This document shows, in pieces, positions 10,097 to 16,997 of a DNA stretch of 64,000 nt. This DNA is from Deltaproteobacteria bacterium. Lineage in GTDB: Bacteria; Myxococcota_A; Polyangia; Polyangiales; JADJMO01. The position numbers and the translations under genes are program-made. The notes under the pieces were generated by a model. It was not told the origin of the DNA. It did no database searches and saw only the letters and a program-made list of their open reading frames with translations. Position 1 is the first letter of the stretch. Each line of letters opens with the position of its first letter. The stretch is from the NCBI GenBank assembly GCA_025363655.1, contig JANYDK010000083.1, forward strand, positions 62,001 to 126,000. The letters run 5' to 3'.

Positions 10097-13000
10097 TCAC
10101 GGCAGCGCGACGAGGCGCACGTTGCCGAGGATGACCGGATCGCCCGGCGTCCCCGAGACCTCGTCGGCTGCGGTGGTGCCCTTCATGCGGTAGAAGTTCG
10201 CCACCTGTCCGTCGATGATCGTCGGCCAGAAGCCGCCGAGGCCGTCTTGTTTGACGACGCCGCGGGTGAACTTCGCGGTCGGTCCGCCGGTGGCCTTCGC
10301 CCAGTGCAGCGTGCCCGCCGTCGAGTCTTGGTAGACGATGGTGACGTTGGTGCCGTTGACGACGATCGACGCGTCGTCGCCGACGAGGTGCTGTCCGTCG
10401 GTGAACTTGGTCGTGCCGTCGGAGGTGGTGCCATCGTCGATGACGACTGGGGTGATCGGCTTCGTCAAATCGCCGCCGGGAACGAAGGCGTAGAGCACCC
10501 ACTCCTTGATGCCGTCGACGTAGGCGACGTGCCAGTTGCCGGTGCTGTCGATCGCGAGCGTGGCAGCGACGCCGCGATCGCCCGTCTTCGCGTCCTTCGC
10601 GGCGTCACCGGTCCAGCCGTCGAGCGGAGCCGTCGCCGGCGTCACCGTCCACTTGCCGCCCTTCGACGAGGCCGCGCGGAGGTTGCCCTTCGTTCGGTCG
10701 TAGAAGACGAGGCCGAGATCGCCCGAAGGCGTGACCGCGAGCGAGTTGTACGAGCCGATGGCGTTGACGAAGCCGCCGAGCGCCGGCGCCGCCTTGAGAC
10801 ACGCCGGCTTGCCCGACGAGTTCTTGGTGCACACGTCGGCGCAGGAAGCGTCGCAACCGCTGGTGGTCGCGGCGCAGACCGCGCCGACCCCCGCCGTGGC
10901 GTCGCCGACCAGACACTTCTCGCCGGAGCCGCAAATGGCTTGAATACAAGGTCCTTTGTCGTCGACGACGACGTCTTCGGTCGACCAATCGCCGGTGCCC
11001 TGCGGAGCCTCGCTGCTCGCGCGTGCGATGCGCACCTTGGCCTTGCCCGCGCCGCCGGTGCCCTTCTCGAGCGTCTGATAGGCGATGACCGGCTTGCCGC
11101 CTGCCATCACCATCGACGTCCAGCGACCCGCCCAACCGGGGCTCTTCGATTCGACCGAGTGCGTCGACCACTTGTTGCCGTCGTAGGTCGCGACGCGGAG
11201 GCCGCCGTTGGTCTTGTCGTAGTAGGCGACGATTGGGTTCCCCTTCGAGTCGAGGACCATCGAGGTGTACTGACCGACGTTGTCACCGGGATCGAGGATG
11301 CCTCCGCGAAAGCCGGTCGAGTCGTAGTCGGGATCGGGAGCGACCGCGGGCACGCCGTCGACGGCGACCCACGAGACCTTGCTCCCGTCCCACTGTCCGA
11401 CGACGAGGTCGCCCTTGAAGTCGTCGGGTTGGCCCGTCGACGGATCGCCCTCGAAATAGCCGGCGATCCAGATCTTCCCGTCGCTGCTCTTGGCGGCGCT
11501 GGTGTGGCCGCCGATGACGTACGTCGGGATCGTCTTGGTGCCGTTCTTCGCGTCGTTGCCCGTATCGGAGGAAGGCGTCTCGGTGTTGCTGTTGCCGCAG
11601 CTGCAGCCGGAGGCTCCAGCCGAGAGCACCATCAGCGACGAGGCTGCGAGTCCGCCTGCAACACGTTGCGCGCGGGTGCGACGACGACGGCGTTCGAGGA
11701 CCGCGCCGAGCGCGCCGAGACCGGCGAGAACACCGACCGGCGTCGTGCCGTTCGAATCGTCGGCGCCCGGAATCGAGCAGCCGCAGCCGCTCTTGGCCGG
11801 CAACGATGGATCGGCGCGACCGCGAATGAGCGGCGAGCTCGTCTGCCCGATGTTGCCCGACTCGTCGGTGACCCGAACCTCGATGCTCGCCGCCGTCTCG
11901 GGGACGCGCACGAGCTGTTCGACCATCTTGCCGCTGATGGTCGCCGGCATGTCGACCGGGACCTTGGTCCACTCGCCGGAGTCGAGTCGGAACTCGACCG
12001 CGAGCGTGCTCGGGAGCGAGACCTGGTCGGTGGCCGTCACCTTCACGAGGCCATTCGTCGCGCCCGGTTGGATGCGCACGATCGGCTTGCCGACGTCGAG
12101 AATGATCGGCAGCTGGTAGGGCTCGCCTTCGCTGTTGGCGACGCCGACGACGCGCGAGGTGACGAAGATGGTGTGCTTGCCCTGGAGGAGGAAGAACGGC
12201 GACGTGACCGTGAAATCAGCGCCCTTCTCGAACGTCGTCCAGGTGCCGCCGTCGACTTTGTAGGCGTACTCGACCTCGTGCGTGCCGTCGTCGAGGTCGC
12301 TCTTGCCGTGCACCATCACCTCGACGGGGTGATCGCCGAACGTCTCGAGCTTCGAGAGGCTCGCTGCGTCGACCGTGTACTTGGTGATCTCGGCGGTGGT
12401 GCGCGCGGTCGGCGTGGCGCTGGTGGCGACGCCGAGCGTGGCGAAGATGGAGAGGAAGTTGTCGGTGCCCTTGGTCAGCTTGCGGATGCCATCGGGCGGA
12501 ATCGTCAGCGTGAGACCGAGCGAGGCCAGCGCCGAGTCGAGCTTGAACGGCTTGATCGCCGAGAGCGCCGACGTCGGGATGAGACCGCCGATCGACTCGA
12601 CGAGCTTGCCGACCTTGGTGTCGTCCTCGAGGAGGATGTTGTTGTTGGTGATGCGCGGATTCTTGAAGCTGATCGGGTTCTTCGGCGGCAGCTTGATGGC
12701 GAGGCCGTCTTTCCCGGCCTCGAGGTTGATCGGCACCTCGATGTCGATGCGGCCGGTGAAGATGCGGATGAAGCGCTCCTCCGACCAGACGTAGAAGTCG
12801 AGGTCGGTGTCCTTGAGGTTGAGGTCGAGGAGCGGGCTCTTGAAGTCGGCGGTGTTGTCCCCGACGGTGATCGTCGGCGGCTTCTGCGGACGAATCGCGA
12901 GGCCCATCGAGGGGTGCGAGTCGGCCGCCGAGAAGCCCTCGGAGAGCCCGTCGAGCGACGGCAAGAGGAGCTTGAAGAGGCCGGCGTCGAGCTGCGGGAT

Positions 13001-14335
13001 CTGCTCGCTGCTGATGCCGATGCAGAAGAGACCGCTGTTGTACGCGGCCGTCGCGGCGTGGTTGAGATAGCGCTCGGCGAGCCCGATGCCGAGGTGCGGC
13101 GGCGCGGGCTCGGCCCACGGCGTGATGGTGTTGGCCGAGAGCTCGTCGGGGAGCACGATGCCCGTCGGCAACGGGTTGGGCGCGGTCGGCACGCAGTTGG
13201 AGACGGGGAAGGGCTCGCCGCCGCCGAACATCGAAAGCGTCACGCCGTTGGTCTTCACGTCGGTGCCCGGCGCGGGGCTCATGTCGCCGCCAGAGGCGAG
13301 CATGAAATCGAGCCCGCCGCTCGTCCCGGGAGAGAGCGACGCGAGGAGCCCGGAGAGATCGAAGCGGGACTCGATGCCGAGGAGCATCGGCACGCACTCG
13401 TCGGTGTCCTTGGTGCCGTAGCGACACGTGCCGCCGACGTCGAAGGTGTCCTTCGGGCACTGCTTCGTGCCGTCCGGGAGGACGTTTTCCTTCATGCACG
13501 TGGCGTTCGAAAGCGGCGCGGTGAGGCTGCTCGTGAGACCGCCGGTGAGCGCGGGGAGGAGCACGCCCTTGAGCGCGTTGACGAGCGCGGTGAAAATCGT
13601 GTCCCAAACGCCGCCGGCGCTCTTGAGGCTGATGCTGGAGTTGAGCAGGTCCTTGTCGAACTCGAGCTTCTTGATGTTGATGCGCGTGTAGCCCGCGCGC
13701 GCTTTGTGAGTCGCGTCGTCGGGGACGGTCTCGAGCGAGATGTCGGCGGTGACCGGCATCTTCACGTACTTCGAGCCGTCGCCGCCTTCACCGAGCGCAG
13801 CCAAGCTCGTCGCGCCGAGCGCGTGCACCGGCAGACGCTGCAATCGCACTGGTAGACGCGCCGAGAGGTTGATGTCGTGCGGCCCGGTCGCGGTGATGAT
13901 CGGGTTCTTGTGCGCGTCGTCGGGGCCGGTGATGCCGGTGAGATCGATCTCGACGATGCACTCGGGCGGTGAGCCGGTCGGCTTCGGCCCGTCGGGGCAG
14001 ACGTCGGCGGTGATCGTCGTGATGAGGATGGAGAAGCTCGGGTGGCTCGTCGGAATCGGGAAGGTCAGCGGTCCACTGGCGCCGAGGAGCTTGGCAGCGA
14101 GCGCGCCCACGTTCTGCTCGAGGAAGTCGAGACCGGTGCGCGTGAGGCGCACGCCCGCGGAGTTCGTCACGCGTCCCTCTTTGGGGAAGCCGCCGGGGAT
14201 TACGCTCGATCCCGCGCAGCTACTGGTGCACCCGCCACCGGCGCAGCCCGCGGCCATCAACGTCGCGGCGACACCGAACGCGCTCCAGAGAAACGAAGCA
14301 GCAGGCGAGCGACCATTCGAAGCAAGAGAACGCAT
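10097..14335 (-). CDS. 1412-residue exported lipoprotein with an internal MYXO-CTERM-like motif followed by a second signal-like segment
   Basis: Start chosen at ATG 14335, which has GGGAGG six bases upstream and opens directly into a lipoprotein signal (lipobox MAAGC). Residues about 30-840 form a beta-rich region containing Ig-like or bacterial adhesion-like stretches (FRLDSGEWTKVPVDMP, EVRVTDESGNIGQ). At about 849-888 there is SGCGCSIPG, then a hydrophobic stretch GVLAGLGALGAVLE and five arginines: the layout of a MYXO-CTERM sorting signal, normally the end of a protein. Reading continues in frame into a second signal-like hydrophobic stretch ending GASGCSC (about 892-913), and about 500 more residues with repeated beta-propeller-like blades (GNPIVAYYDKTNGGLRVATY, LGLVFYDRTKGNLRAASS). 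It looks like two exported proteins fused. It heads the operon down to the Smr gene. Confidence 0.8.
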   Translation of the reverse strand: MRSLASNGRSPAASFLWSAFGVAATLMAAGCAGGGCTSSCAGSSVIPGGFPKEGRVTNSAGVRLTRTGLDFLEQNVGALAAKLLGASGPLTFPIPTSHPSFSILITTITADVCPDGPKPTGSPPECIVEIDLTGITGPDDAHKNPIITATGPHDINLSARLPVRLQRLPVHALGATSLAALGEGGDGSKYVKMPVTADISLETVPDDATHKARAGYTRINIKKLEFDKDLLNSSISLKSAGGVWDTIFTALVNALKGVLLPALTGGLTSSLTAPLSNATCMKENVLPDGTKQCPKDTFDVGGTCRYGTKDTDECVPMLLGIESRFDLSGLLASLSPGTSGGLDFMLASGGDMSPAPGTDVKTNGVTLSMFGGGEPFPVSNCVPTAPNPLPTGIVLPDELSANTITPWAEPAPPHLGIGLAERYLNHAATAAYNSGLFCIGISSEQIPQLDAGLFKLLLPSLDGLSEGFSAADSHPSMGLAIRPQKPPTITVGDNTADFKSPLLDLNLKDTDLDFYVWSEERFIRIFTGRIDIEVPINLEAGKDGLAIKLPPKNPISFKNPRITNNNILLEDDTKVGKLVESIGGLIPTSALSAIKPFKLDSALASLGLTLTIPPDGIRKLTKGTDNFLSIFATLGVATSATPTARTTAEITKYTVDAASLSKLETFGDHPVEVMVHGKSDLDDGTHEVEYAYKVDGGTWTTFEKGADFTVTSPFFLLQGKHTIFVTSRVVGVANSEGEPYQLPIILDVGKPIVRIQPGATNGLVKVTATDQVSLPSTLAVEFRLDSGEWTKVPVDMPATISGKMVEQLVRVPETAASIEVRVTDESGNIGQTSSPLIRGRADPSLPAKSGCGCSIPGADDSNGTTPVGVLAGLGALGAVLERRRRRTRAQRVAGGLAASSLMVLSAGASGCSCGNSNTETPSSDTGNDAKNGTKTIPTYVIGGHTSAAKSSDGKIWIAGYFEGDPSTGQPDDFKGDLVVGQWDGSKVSWVAVDGVPAVAPDPDYDSTGFRGGILDPGDNVGQYTSMVLDSKGNPIVAYYDKTNGGLRVATYDGNKWSTHSVESKSPGWAGRWTSMVMAGGKPVIAYQTLEKGTGGAGKAKVRIARASSEAPQGTGDWSTEDVVVDDKGPCIQAICGSGEKCLVGDATAGVGAVCAATTSGCDASCADVCTKNSSGKPACLKAAPALGGFVNAIGSYNSLAVTPSGDLGLVFYDRTKGNLRAASSKGGKWTVTPATAPLDGWTGDAAKDAKTGDRGVAATLAIDSTGNWHVAYVDGIKEWVLYAFVPGGDLTKPITPVVIDDGTTSDGTTKFTDGQHLVGDDASIVVNGTNVTIVYQDSTAGTLHWAKATGGPTAKFTRGVVKQDGLGGFWPTIIDGQVANFYRMKGTTAADEVSGTPGDPVILGNVRLVALP

Positions 14336-14478
14336 AGAGACCTCCCGAGCCGCACGACGGCGGTGTGCGGCGGAACCACGGACTGAACCGTGATTCATTG
14401 AGCGGCGAAGACGAGACGTCGCGTCGACCGACGAAAGGAAGGACGCGCGTGGAAGACGGTGATGAAATCTACGGCGTG

Positions 14479-14717: not shown

Positions 14718-15755
14718 CTACGGCGCTGCGATGTTCGCGCCGTAGGCCGAGAACGTCGCCGAGAGAAGGAAGGCGTCGTTCGTGGTGGTGACGGTGGCGT
14801 CGCCGATGTTGGGGATCTTGCCGTCCGCCCCGCGCTTGCAGGTCTTGCCCGAGACCTTGCTCGCGTCGTTGGCGAGGATCGCGCAGAGCGACTGACAGCC
14901 CGCCGACTTGACCGGGATGTGGTCGGCGTCTTCGACGGTGATCTTGCCGACGATCGCGCCGCCGGTGGTCCAGCCGAGCGAGTCGCCGTCACACCAGTAG
15001 TCCTTGTTCCACGAACCGATGCAGTTGCCGTCGGCCGAGATGGTGACGTTCTTGACGATGCCCTGCTGGATGGGGAGGACGATCGGCGTCGGCGCGCTGG
15101 CGTCGAAGATCGGGATGTTGATCTTGTCGATCTTGCTGCTGCTGAAGGTGTTGCCAGTGAAGACGACGGGCAGGGTGATCGGCGAGAGGTCGATCGGATC
15201 GGCGGGGCCGACGAAGCCCGGGCAGATGCCGCTGAGGTCGGCGCCGTTGACCTTCTTGGTGGAGAACGCCCAGGTCTTGGCGTCGGCGCTCTTCTCGGCG
15301 CCACCGGTCTTGATGGTGTTCGCCTTCTTGTCGATTTGGACGAGCCAGTTGAACGTCTCGGCGCCGTTGTTGGCGCACTTGGGGCTGACGTTCGGATCGA
15401 CCGCGAGGGGCGCGAGCGAGAGGAGCGCGTCAGGCGCCCAGAGGCGGATGCGGCCCATGCGCATGTTGAGGATGTCACCGGTCTGCTTGGCGACCGCCAT
15501 GCAGGCCGTGTCGCTCGGACACGAGGCGACCTCCGCCGTCGACTTGCACTTCGGCAGCGTCGGGTCGGGCGGACACGCGATGGGCGGGTCTTCCTTTGTG
15601 ACGACCTTGCAGGGATCGCCGCCGCCGGTGTCGGTGGTCGGCGTGCCGGTATCTGCAGGAGCCGCCGTGCCGCTGCTGCTGCTGCTGCAACCCGCGACGA
15701 ACAGCGCACCACACACGCTCGCAAACGCGAGCGACATCGACAGGGAACGATTCAT
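14718..15755 (-). CDS. Exported lipoprotein, unknown function
   Basis: 345 residues. Signal peptide with lipobox FVAGC and a Ser run, a Thr/Asp/Gly linker, then a folded region of about 300 residues with scattered cysteines (DPCKVV, PPIACPP, LPKCKS, ASCPSD, YWCDGDS, AGCQSLCAI, KTCKRG) and beta-rich segments (VVFTGNTFSSSKIDKINIPI). AGGAGG lies about 8 bases before the ATG. The last residues, SATFSAYGANIAAP, may form a final strand. No family recognised. A terminator follows, so it is probably monocistronic. Confidence 0.75.
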   Translation of the reverse strand: MNRSLSMSLAFASVCGALFVAGCSSSSSGTAAPADTGTPTTDTGGGDPCKVVTKEDPPIACPPDPTLPKCKSTAEVASCPSDTACMAVAKQTGDILNMRMGRIRLWAPDALLSLAPLAVDPNVSPKCANNGAETFNWLVQIDKKANTIKTGGAEKSADAKTWAFSTKKVNGADLSGICPGFVGPADPIDLSPITLPVVFTGNTFSSSKIDKINIPIFDASAPTPIVLPIQQGIVKNVTISADGNCIGSWNKDYWCDGDSLGWTTGGAIVGKITVEDADHIPVKSAGCQSLCAILANDASKVSGKTCKRGADGKIPNIGDATVTTTNDAFLLSATFSAYGANIAAP

Positions 15756-15892: not shown

Positions 15893-16879
15893 TCAGCGAA
15901 GGAGCGAGAGCGCCTCGGCGTCGTGCTCGACGTGGACGAGCTTGCGGAAGGCCTCGAGGCGAGCGCGCAATTCTGCCCCCGTGAGCGTGAGGAGGCGGCT
16001 CGGGCCGACCGCTTCGACGCAGAACGAGGCCATCGCGCTGCCGGCGAAAATGGCGCGACGGAGCGCGGCGCGATCGACCGTTCCGCCTTTGGAGTCGACG
16101 TGGGCGAGGTAGCCCATGAAGCCGCCGGCGAAGGTGTCGCCTGCCCCCGTGGGGTCGTAGACGTCTTCCAGCGGATAAGCAGGAGCGAAGAAGGTGCTCT
16201 GCTCGCTCGAGGGCGCGTCGAAGAGGAGGGCGCCGAACTCGCCGCGCTTCACGACGAGCATCTTCGGGCCCATCGCGCGAATCGCCTGTGCGGCGCGCGA
16301 GACGTTGTGGTGACCACCGAGCTGTCGGGCCTCTTCGTCGTTGATGACGAGGACGTCGATTTTCTCGAGGAGCTTGCCGAGGAGCGCGCGCTCGCCGGTG
16401 ATCCAGAAGTTCATCGTGTCGGCGACCACGAGCTTCGGCTTCTCGATTTGCTCGAGGACCTCGAGCTGGAGAGCCGGATGGATGTTGCCGAGCAGGACGA
16501 ACGGCGCGCGACGGCCGGCCGCGGGGATTTTCGGGCGAAAATCGGCGAAGACGTTGAGCTGCGTGTCGAGCGTGGTGCGCGACGAGAGTGTGCCGTCGTA
16601 GCGGCCAGCCCAGCGGAACGACTTGCCCTTGGCGCGCTCGACGCCGTGGACGTCGACGCCGTGGGTCTGAAGCGAGTCGAGGTGCGCTTGCGGGAAGTCG
16701 TCGCCGATGACGGCCACGAGATCGACGGGCGTGAAGAGCGACGCCGCGAGCGACGCGTACGAGGCGGAGCCGCCCCACACGTCTTTGTGCATCTCCCACT
16801 TGCCGGAGTTGGGCGGGGTGGGGACGGGGAGCTCGAGGTCGTCGAAGGCGACCGATCCGACGATGAGGAGACGGGACAC
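15893..16879 (-). CDS. PfkB-family sugar or nucleoside kinase
   Basis: 328 residues from GTG 16879. That start is chosen because AGGAG lies seven bases upstream and because the Rossmann-like strand SRLLIVGSVAFDD, the usual PfkB N-terminus, begins right after it; a longer version would add an unrelated basic stretch. It has the N-terminal GG-containing motif (DVWGGSASYASLAASL), the NDEEARQL segment, and the ATP/catalytic signature DPTGAGDTFAGGFMGYL with the catalytic Asp. PfkB enzymes phosphorylate a sugar or nucleoside hydroxyl with ATP. The exact substrate is not shown; the nearby MtnP gene makes adenosine or a related nucleoside a reasonable guess. Confidence 0.85.
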   Translation of the reverse strand: MSRLLIVGSVAFDDLELPVPTPPNSGKWEMHKDVWGGSASYASLAASLFTPVDLVAVIGDDFPQAHLDSLQTHGVDVHGVERAKGKSFRWAGRYDGTLSSRTTLDTQLNVFADFRPKIPAAGRRAPFVLLGNIHPALQLEVLEQIEKPKLVVADTMNFWITGERALLGKLLEKIDVLVINDEEARQLGGHHNVSRAAQAIRAMGPKMLVVKRGEFGALLFDAPSSEQSTFFAPAYPLEDVYDPTGAGDTFAGGFMGYLAHVDSKGGTVDRAALRRAIFAGSAMASFCVEAVGPSRLLTLTGAELRARLEAFRKLVHVEHDAEALSLLR

Positions 16880-16969
16880 GTGGACTCCTGCCGATTCGAG
16901 GAAGCGTTTTCGGGCGTACGAAGCGCCGGCGTTGTCGGCAAAAAGGCGCGGGGCGTCAACGTTCGCGGC

Positions 16970-16997
16970 GGCCAAAGTTGCGCAGCGATCTTTGGCC
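16970..16997. repeat. Palindromic element, copy A (GGCCAAAG-N12-CTTTGGCC)
   Basis: Perfect 8-base arms around TTGCGCAGCGAT, between the divergently transcribed kinase and the small lipoprotein. Nearly the same sequence occurs at 37663-37689 (copy B), the two agreeing at all but two positions. Part of the -35 zone of the downstream gene may lie inside it. Confidence 0.6.

Follow-up and report, generated by a model that had tools for sequence, protein, structure and literature searches.

A fused open reading frame of Polyangiales with an internal MYXO-CTERM signal and a lipoprotein-type signal, and its likely processing into two surface proteins

We identified in a 64,000-nucleotide stretch of a Polyangiales genome (here called the window) an open reading frame of 1,412 amino acids which joins two proteins through an internal MYXO-CTERM sorting signal and a directly following lipoprotein-type signal. 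The frame is likely to encode a polyprotein that is cut by a myxosortase and by LspA and yields two surface proteins, with the topology, the lipidation, both cuts and the final location being predicted. This explanation is the best one given how the junction is built and conserved, that some relatives are naturally split at it, that similar junctions recur in unrelated families and that the genome encodes the enzymes.

Anatomy of the fused open reading frame

The reading frame lies on the minus strand (ATG at 14335, stop at 10097) and its relatives start at the equivalent methionine; an alternative upstream in-frame ATG at 14398 (minus strand) would give a frame of 1,433 amino acids. All features below are on the minus strand. 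The strand, position and residue numbers of the initial annotation of this DNA were correct, with the junction elements placed exactly. The protein starts with a lipoprotein signal peptide (residues 1–30, 14246..14335) followed by the lipid cysteine Cys31 (MAAGC), which is invariant in an alignment of 19 members.

An internal MYXO-CTERM signal is found at residues 849–886 (11678..11791; residues 870–907 in the 1,433-amino-acid reading). It consists of SGCGCSIPG (residues 849–857), a helix (residues 863–881) and an arginine cluster, with C851 and C853 invariant. The TIGR03901 model gives the mid-protein MYXO-CTERM-like signal noticed earlier 29.4 bits (curated cut-off 20), the highest TIGR03901 score in the 9.0-Mb genome to which the window belongs. 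MYXO-CTERM signals are C-terminal by definition, and in this frame 526 residues are still to come after the signal. The junction signal is hence an internal variant of MYXO-CTERM and no standard member.

The signal runs into an arginine-rich loop, RRRRRTRAQR (residues 882–891, 11663..11692), which is predicted to be cytoplasmic and in which R883 is invariant and R882 nearly so. It is followed by a second hydrophobic helix (residues 892–910, 11606..11662) that ends in GASG, with G910 invariant, and by Cys911 of the lipobox GASGC (11603..11605), the predicted lipidated N-terminus of a second product. The second in-frame lipoprotein-type signal of the initial annotation is thus present, and so is its fusion without punctuation: the window frame has no stop between the halves and no usable in-frame start codon before the second helix. 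The NF058595 'lipo-invert' model, which is described for a C-terminal anchor, weakly matched the arginine loop, helix and lipobox at their internal position (19.8 bits, cut-off 37), and membership of that family was rejected on this score. Other NF058595 matches in the genome are mostly ordinary N-terminal lipoprotein signals. One of the matches (L033, G000:C34:63429-63662, minus strand) is a helix-arginine-helix-lipobox hairpin that lacks the MYXO-CTERM cysteine.

Residues 56–637 of the N-terminal half (12425..14170; mature residues 26–607) were modelled with AlphaFold2 at a pLDDT of 83.6. Foldseek matched the model to BPI (E 1e-17), and VIA-align gave Z 13.5–15.1 to BPI, LBP and CETP over 417–434 of about 456 residues, the next rows being below 10. 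Foldseek and VIA-align also placed two fibronectin-type-III-like (FN3) domains at residues 640–839 (11819..12418). At fold level only, the N-terminal half therefore models as a BPI/LBP/CETP-type pseudodimer of two TULIP domains, with two FN3-like domains behind it. No Pfam model matched this half and no PDB sequence match to BPI was found; PDB sequence searches with both halves gave nothing useful. DUF4403 is a bacterial BPI-like TULIP family with two TULIP domains (Levine, 2019; PMC6791001). The N-terminal half shares the BPI-like two-TULIP arrangement with DUF4403, and differs in lacking a Pfam match and in carrying two FN3 domains and a MYXO-CTERM. The model fold and a predicted surface location would make it a family of BPI-like TULIPs at the myxobacterial surface which escapes Pfam.

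The beta-propeller-like domain suspected after the second signal was borne out by a high-confidence AlphaFold2 model of the C-terminal half (residues 911–1412, 10100..11605; pLDDT 91.8). Foldseek matched it to PLL/PHL lectins and neuraminidases, with a target-normalised TM of 0.64–0.70 to several PLL/PHL lectins. It models as a lectin/sialidase-type propeller with a cysteine-rich insert, nearest to PLL/PHL lectins and sialidases at fold level. Directly upstream of the polyprotein gene lies a gene for a 345-amino-acid lipoprotein (14718..15755), which adjoins it in 40/74 loci. Since a lipid-binding fold, a glycan-binding fold and this conserved lipoprotein neighbour occur together, we would guess at a role of the TULIP/propeller pair in lipid or glycolipid handling at the outer surface. 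Further upstream, at 15893-16975 (minus strand), is a gene for a 360-amino-acid protein with the look of a PfkB-family sugar kinase; in about 40/74 loci the lipoprotein and PfkB-like genes are conserved beside the polyprotein gene.

Conservation of the junction and natural split forms

The full-length fused protein is present throughout the order. In the set of named genomes 61 of 74 loci are fused, including those of the complete genomes of Sorangium cellulosum So ce26, So ceGT47 and So0157-2 and of a draft of Polyangium fumosum. Of the other 13 loci, most are truncated at the end of a contig, two have the halves as split genes, and a few consist of a solo N-terminal half. In other classes of the phylum, which were searched with the single protein, both halves are in one frame in 28 of the 30 loci fetched, mostly with about 27–33% identity over the N-terminal half. 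The look-up of separate and fused homologues called for by the initial annotation thus gave 89 fused relatives, all of which keep both signals, and two lineages split at the junction.

The MYXO-CTERM cysteine and the lipobox cysteine are kept in 61/61 fused relatives of the named-genome set, a count that describes conservation and not independent events because the 61 were found as homologues. The residue before the lipobox cysteine is Gly in 58 and Ala in 3, and the distance from the arginine cluster to this cysteine varies from 17 to 64 amino acids. A hydrophobic stretch followed by a small residue and Cys is present at all 61 junctions, which exceeds chance: the control windows of 70 amino acids show it in 1.4% of cases when taken from other parts of these proteins and in 2.8% when taken from all open reading frames. 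By the last five residues of a PS51257-type pattern, 45/61 junction lipoboxes fit and 16 miss, mostly at positions −2 and −3. As judged by eye, cysteine, helix, arginines, helix and cysteine also follow one another in this order in the 28 members from other classes. Within the junction of the divergent 19-member alignment, the only invariant residues are C851, C853, R883, G910 and C911.

In a tree of the N-terminal half (quick method, midpoint root) the root separates two groups that both contain fused members, and the split and solo forms branch from among the fused ones. The fusion is therefore old, and from the tree the split forms look derived.

In the two split lineages the halves are two genes with an overlap of a few bases, which falls exactly on the arginine loop. 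Gene 1 ends after its own MYXO-CTERM, and gene 2 begins with an ordinary lipoprotein signal, so that the signal which is internal at residues 892–911 of the fused frame is N-terminal in these two relatives. In L226 (the same locus as G017) gene 1 stops after the arginine tail in a TGATG overlap with gene 2, MNARTCLVGALALTLAGVANPGC; L238 is split likewise through a GTGA overlap, MNRTKLFLFSVASFAGVFQGC. One of the split second genes has Pro at −2 of the lipobox. Judged from these gene structures, the split forms suggest that the fused chain serves as two proteins. L227, L232 and L247 are solo N-terminal halves. A separate solo paralogue of the TULIP half (L191, on the same contig as L115 in genome G003) ends at its own MYXO-CTERM in a genome that also has a fused copy.

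Internal MYXO-CTERM signals in two genomes

A complete TIGR03901 census, in which every match was checked, was made for two genomes: that of the window and genome G006. The window's own genome has 34 matches (32 terminal, 2 internal) and G006 has 78 (71 terminal, 7 internal), so that 103 of the 112 signals are terminal and 9 internal. G006 was picked since the junction profile had already shown four internal cases there, and its internal share is biased upward for this reason. All nine internal signals are followed by an arginine-rich loop, a hydrophobic stretch and a Gly-Cys lipobox, among them four which were first met through the plain MYXO-CTERM model (L333, L353 and L362 of G006, and L098 of the window's own genome). 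This suggests, at the level of sequence, that internal MYXO-CTERMs form a class with a rule and are not stray fusions.

The families with internal junctions are unrelated. They include MopE-repeat proteins, of which one has a second part that contains an FGE-sulfatase domain, and other junctions precede an M2 peptidase or a GDSL lipase; at L111:3945-6923 (plus strand) a complete M2 (ACE-like) peptidase domain (723 bits) stands behind the MYXO-CTERM/lipobox junction. The 2,112-amino-acid protein L098 (G000:C127, 3450-9785, plus strand) is a fused tandem duplicate (28% identity over 979 amino acids), and a Pfam search with it gave no match. Its first copy starts with a lipoprotein signal, a MYXO-CTERM and a lipobox stand at the junction, and its second copy ends with a MYXO-CTERM; the internal lipobox signal is placed where copy 1 has its true N-terminal signal.

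Taken over the phylum, we lean towards a general strategy of Myxococcota, somewhat less firmly than we hold the reading of the window protein, in which a removable hairpin of MYXO-CTERM and lipoprotein signal joins pairs of unrelated surface proteins and would be cut out by two cysteine-recognising membrane proteases, giving the partners 1:1. The pairs in this more general reading would be TULIP/propeller proteins, MopE-repeat proteins, M2 peptidase, GDSL lipase and tandem duplicates.

Proposed processing, alternatives and known systems

The window's genome encodes the myxosortase MrtC (NF040594, 246.2 bits, cut-off 195) as well as LspA and GspD, both over their cut-offs. The cut by myxosortase falls at the MYXO-CTERM cysteine, probably once this has been lipidated, and the type II secretion system takes the product to the surface (PMC11980579). 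In our proposal Sec would export the chain via the N-terminal lipoprotein signal, the MYXO-CTERM helix would stop transfer and leave the arginine loop in the cytoplasm, and the next helix would act as an internal lipoprotein signal that sends the C-terminal half across the membrane. The two helices would form a hairpin that places its two flanking cysteines on the periplasmic side of the membrane, on which both proteases act. The predicted cut of MrtC follows the MYXO-CTERM cysteine and that of LspA precedes the lipobox cysteine, after which the hairpin would be discarded and two lipid-anchored proteins, the BPI/LBP-like lipid-binding TULIP and the lectin-like propeller, would remain in a 1:1 ratio. 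The hairpin bears both the 'end' signal of the first protein and the 'start' signal of its successor, so that a single gene probably supplies the two in equal numbers. Of the two options in the initial annotation, the polyprotein that is cleaved at the sorting motif to give two surface proteins fits all the comparative evidence; cleavage is a prediction in both versions, and ours adds the second cut at the lipobox. Counting against this reading are the 16 lipoboxes off the PROSITE-type pattern, the Pro at −2 in a split second gene, the definition of MYXO-CTERM as C-terminal, with myxosortase action on an internal motif as yet a proposal (PMC11980579), and the Lgt matches just under the cut-off.

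The alternative that survives best, though we consider it rather unlikely, is an uncleaved two-headed membrane protein, in which the hairpin is retained and holds the two periplasmic domains at the inner membrane, and the cysteines may be lipidated as extra anchors. Such a topology works without any cut and a fusion kept over long evolution is consistent with it; however, the residues that are invariant at the junction are only those of processing sites, and a mere anchor needs neither CxC nor Gly-Cys. The split forms and solo N-terminal halves further show that the linkage is dispensable, and a myxosortase is encoded. A little less probable still is a single cut, with the hairpin kept on one product as its membrane anchor. 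Irregular junction lipoboxes would fit this, as does the proposal of Guo et al. (PMC11980579) that only the N part of MXAN_5598 is processed, whereas the equal invariance of both cysteines argues for two cuts. We regard it as very improbable that the halves are separate translation products made from an internal start at the junction. An in-frame ATG, GTG or TTG before the second helix is within reach in 30/61 fused genes, but 31/61 and the window gene have none, and a start with a Shine-Dalgarno-like motif occurs in only 4/61; separate translation is therefore not the general route and was rejected as such. A recent fusion, the other option of the initial annotation, or the loss of a stop through an error in sequencing or assembly could be imagined from a single genome viewed alone or from the separate genes of two relatives, and both are refuted by the 89 fused relatives, some in complete isolate genomes and other classes, and by the nesting of the split and solo forms.

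Guo, Haft and Wall (2025; PMC11980579) describe internal MYXO-CTERMs as rare, and treat MXAN_5598 of Myxococcus xanthus as a likely fusion for which processing of the N part, and thus myxosortase action on an internal motif, is proposed only. MXAN_5598 resembles the window protein in being a single open reading frame with an internal MYXO-CTERM. Its C part is an OmpA-type beta-barrel protein as opposed to the lectin-like propeller found here, and it is set apart by description, as the available part of PMC11980579 mentions neither a paired lipobox nor a conserved hairpin for it, and neither a polyprotein family nor relatives that are split. The TraA/MrtX-type MYXO-CTERM proteins described there share with ours the motif, helix, arginine tail and a genome-encoded myxosortase; known MYXO-CTERM proteins end at the arginine tail, whereas the window protein continues for about 520 residues and has a second export signal there. 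Our literature search for tandem sorting signals or LspA-cut polyproteins found nothing beyond MXAN_5598.

The junction signal has the positive n-region, hydrophobic h-region and Gly-Cys lipobox of Sec/LspA lipoprotein signal peptides, from which it differs in that it is internal and would insert into the membrane from a cytoplasmic loop belonging to its own chain. To our knowledge, few cellular polyproteins of bacteria carry two export signals. The rhizobial cytochrome b/c1 precursor FbcH is a bacterial polyprotein cut at an internal signal sequence; unlike the polyprotein proposed here, it is a respiratory-chain precursor cut by signal peptidase I and has no sorting-enzyme site. New here are the pairing of the MYXO-CTERM with a lipobox, its conservation across the phylum, the split forms that serve as controls, the finding that such junctions recur in unrelated families, and the modelled folds of both products. 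The polyprotein is old, phylum-wide and recurrent, and its natural splits are a built-in control. The system makes it possible to test myxosortase action on internal motifs, lipidation before the myxosortase cut and LspA action on an internal signal.

The best Lgt match in the window's genome scores 106 bits against a cut-off of 118.9. There are three Lgt-like genes (on C144, C123 and C67), all under this cut-off, and one of them could encode the acyltransferase for MYXO-CTERM cysteines.
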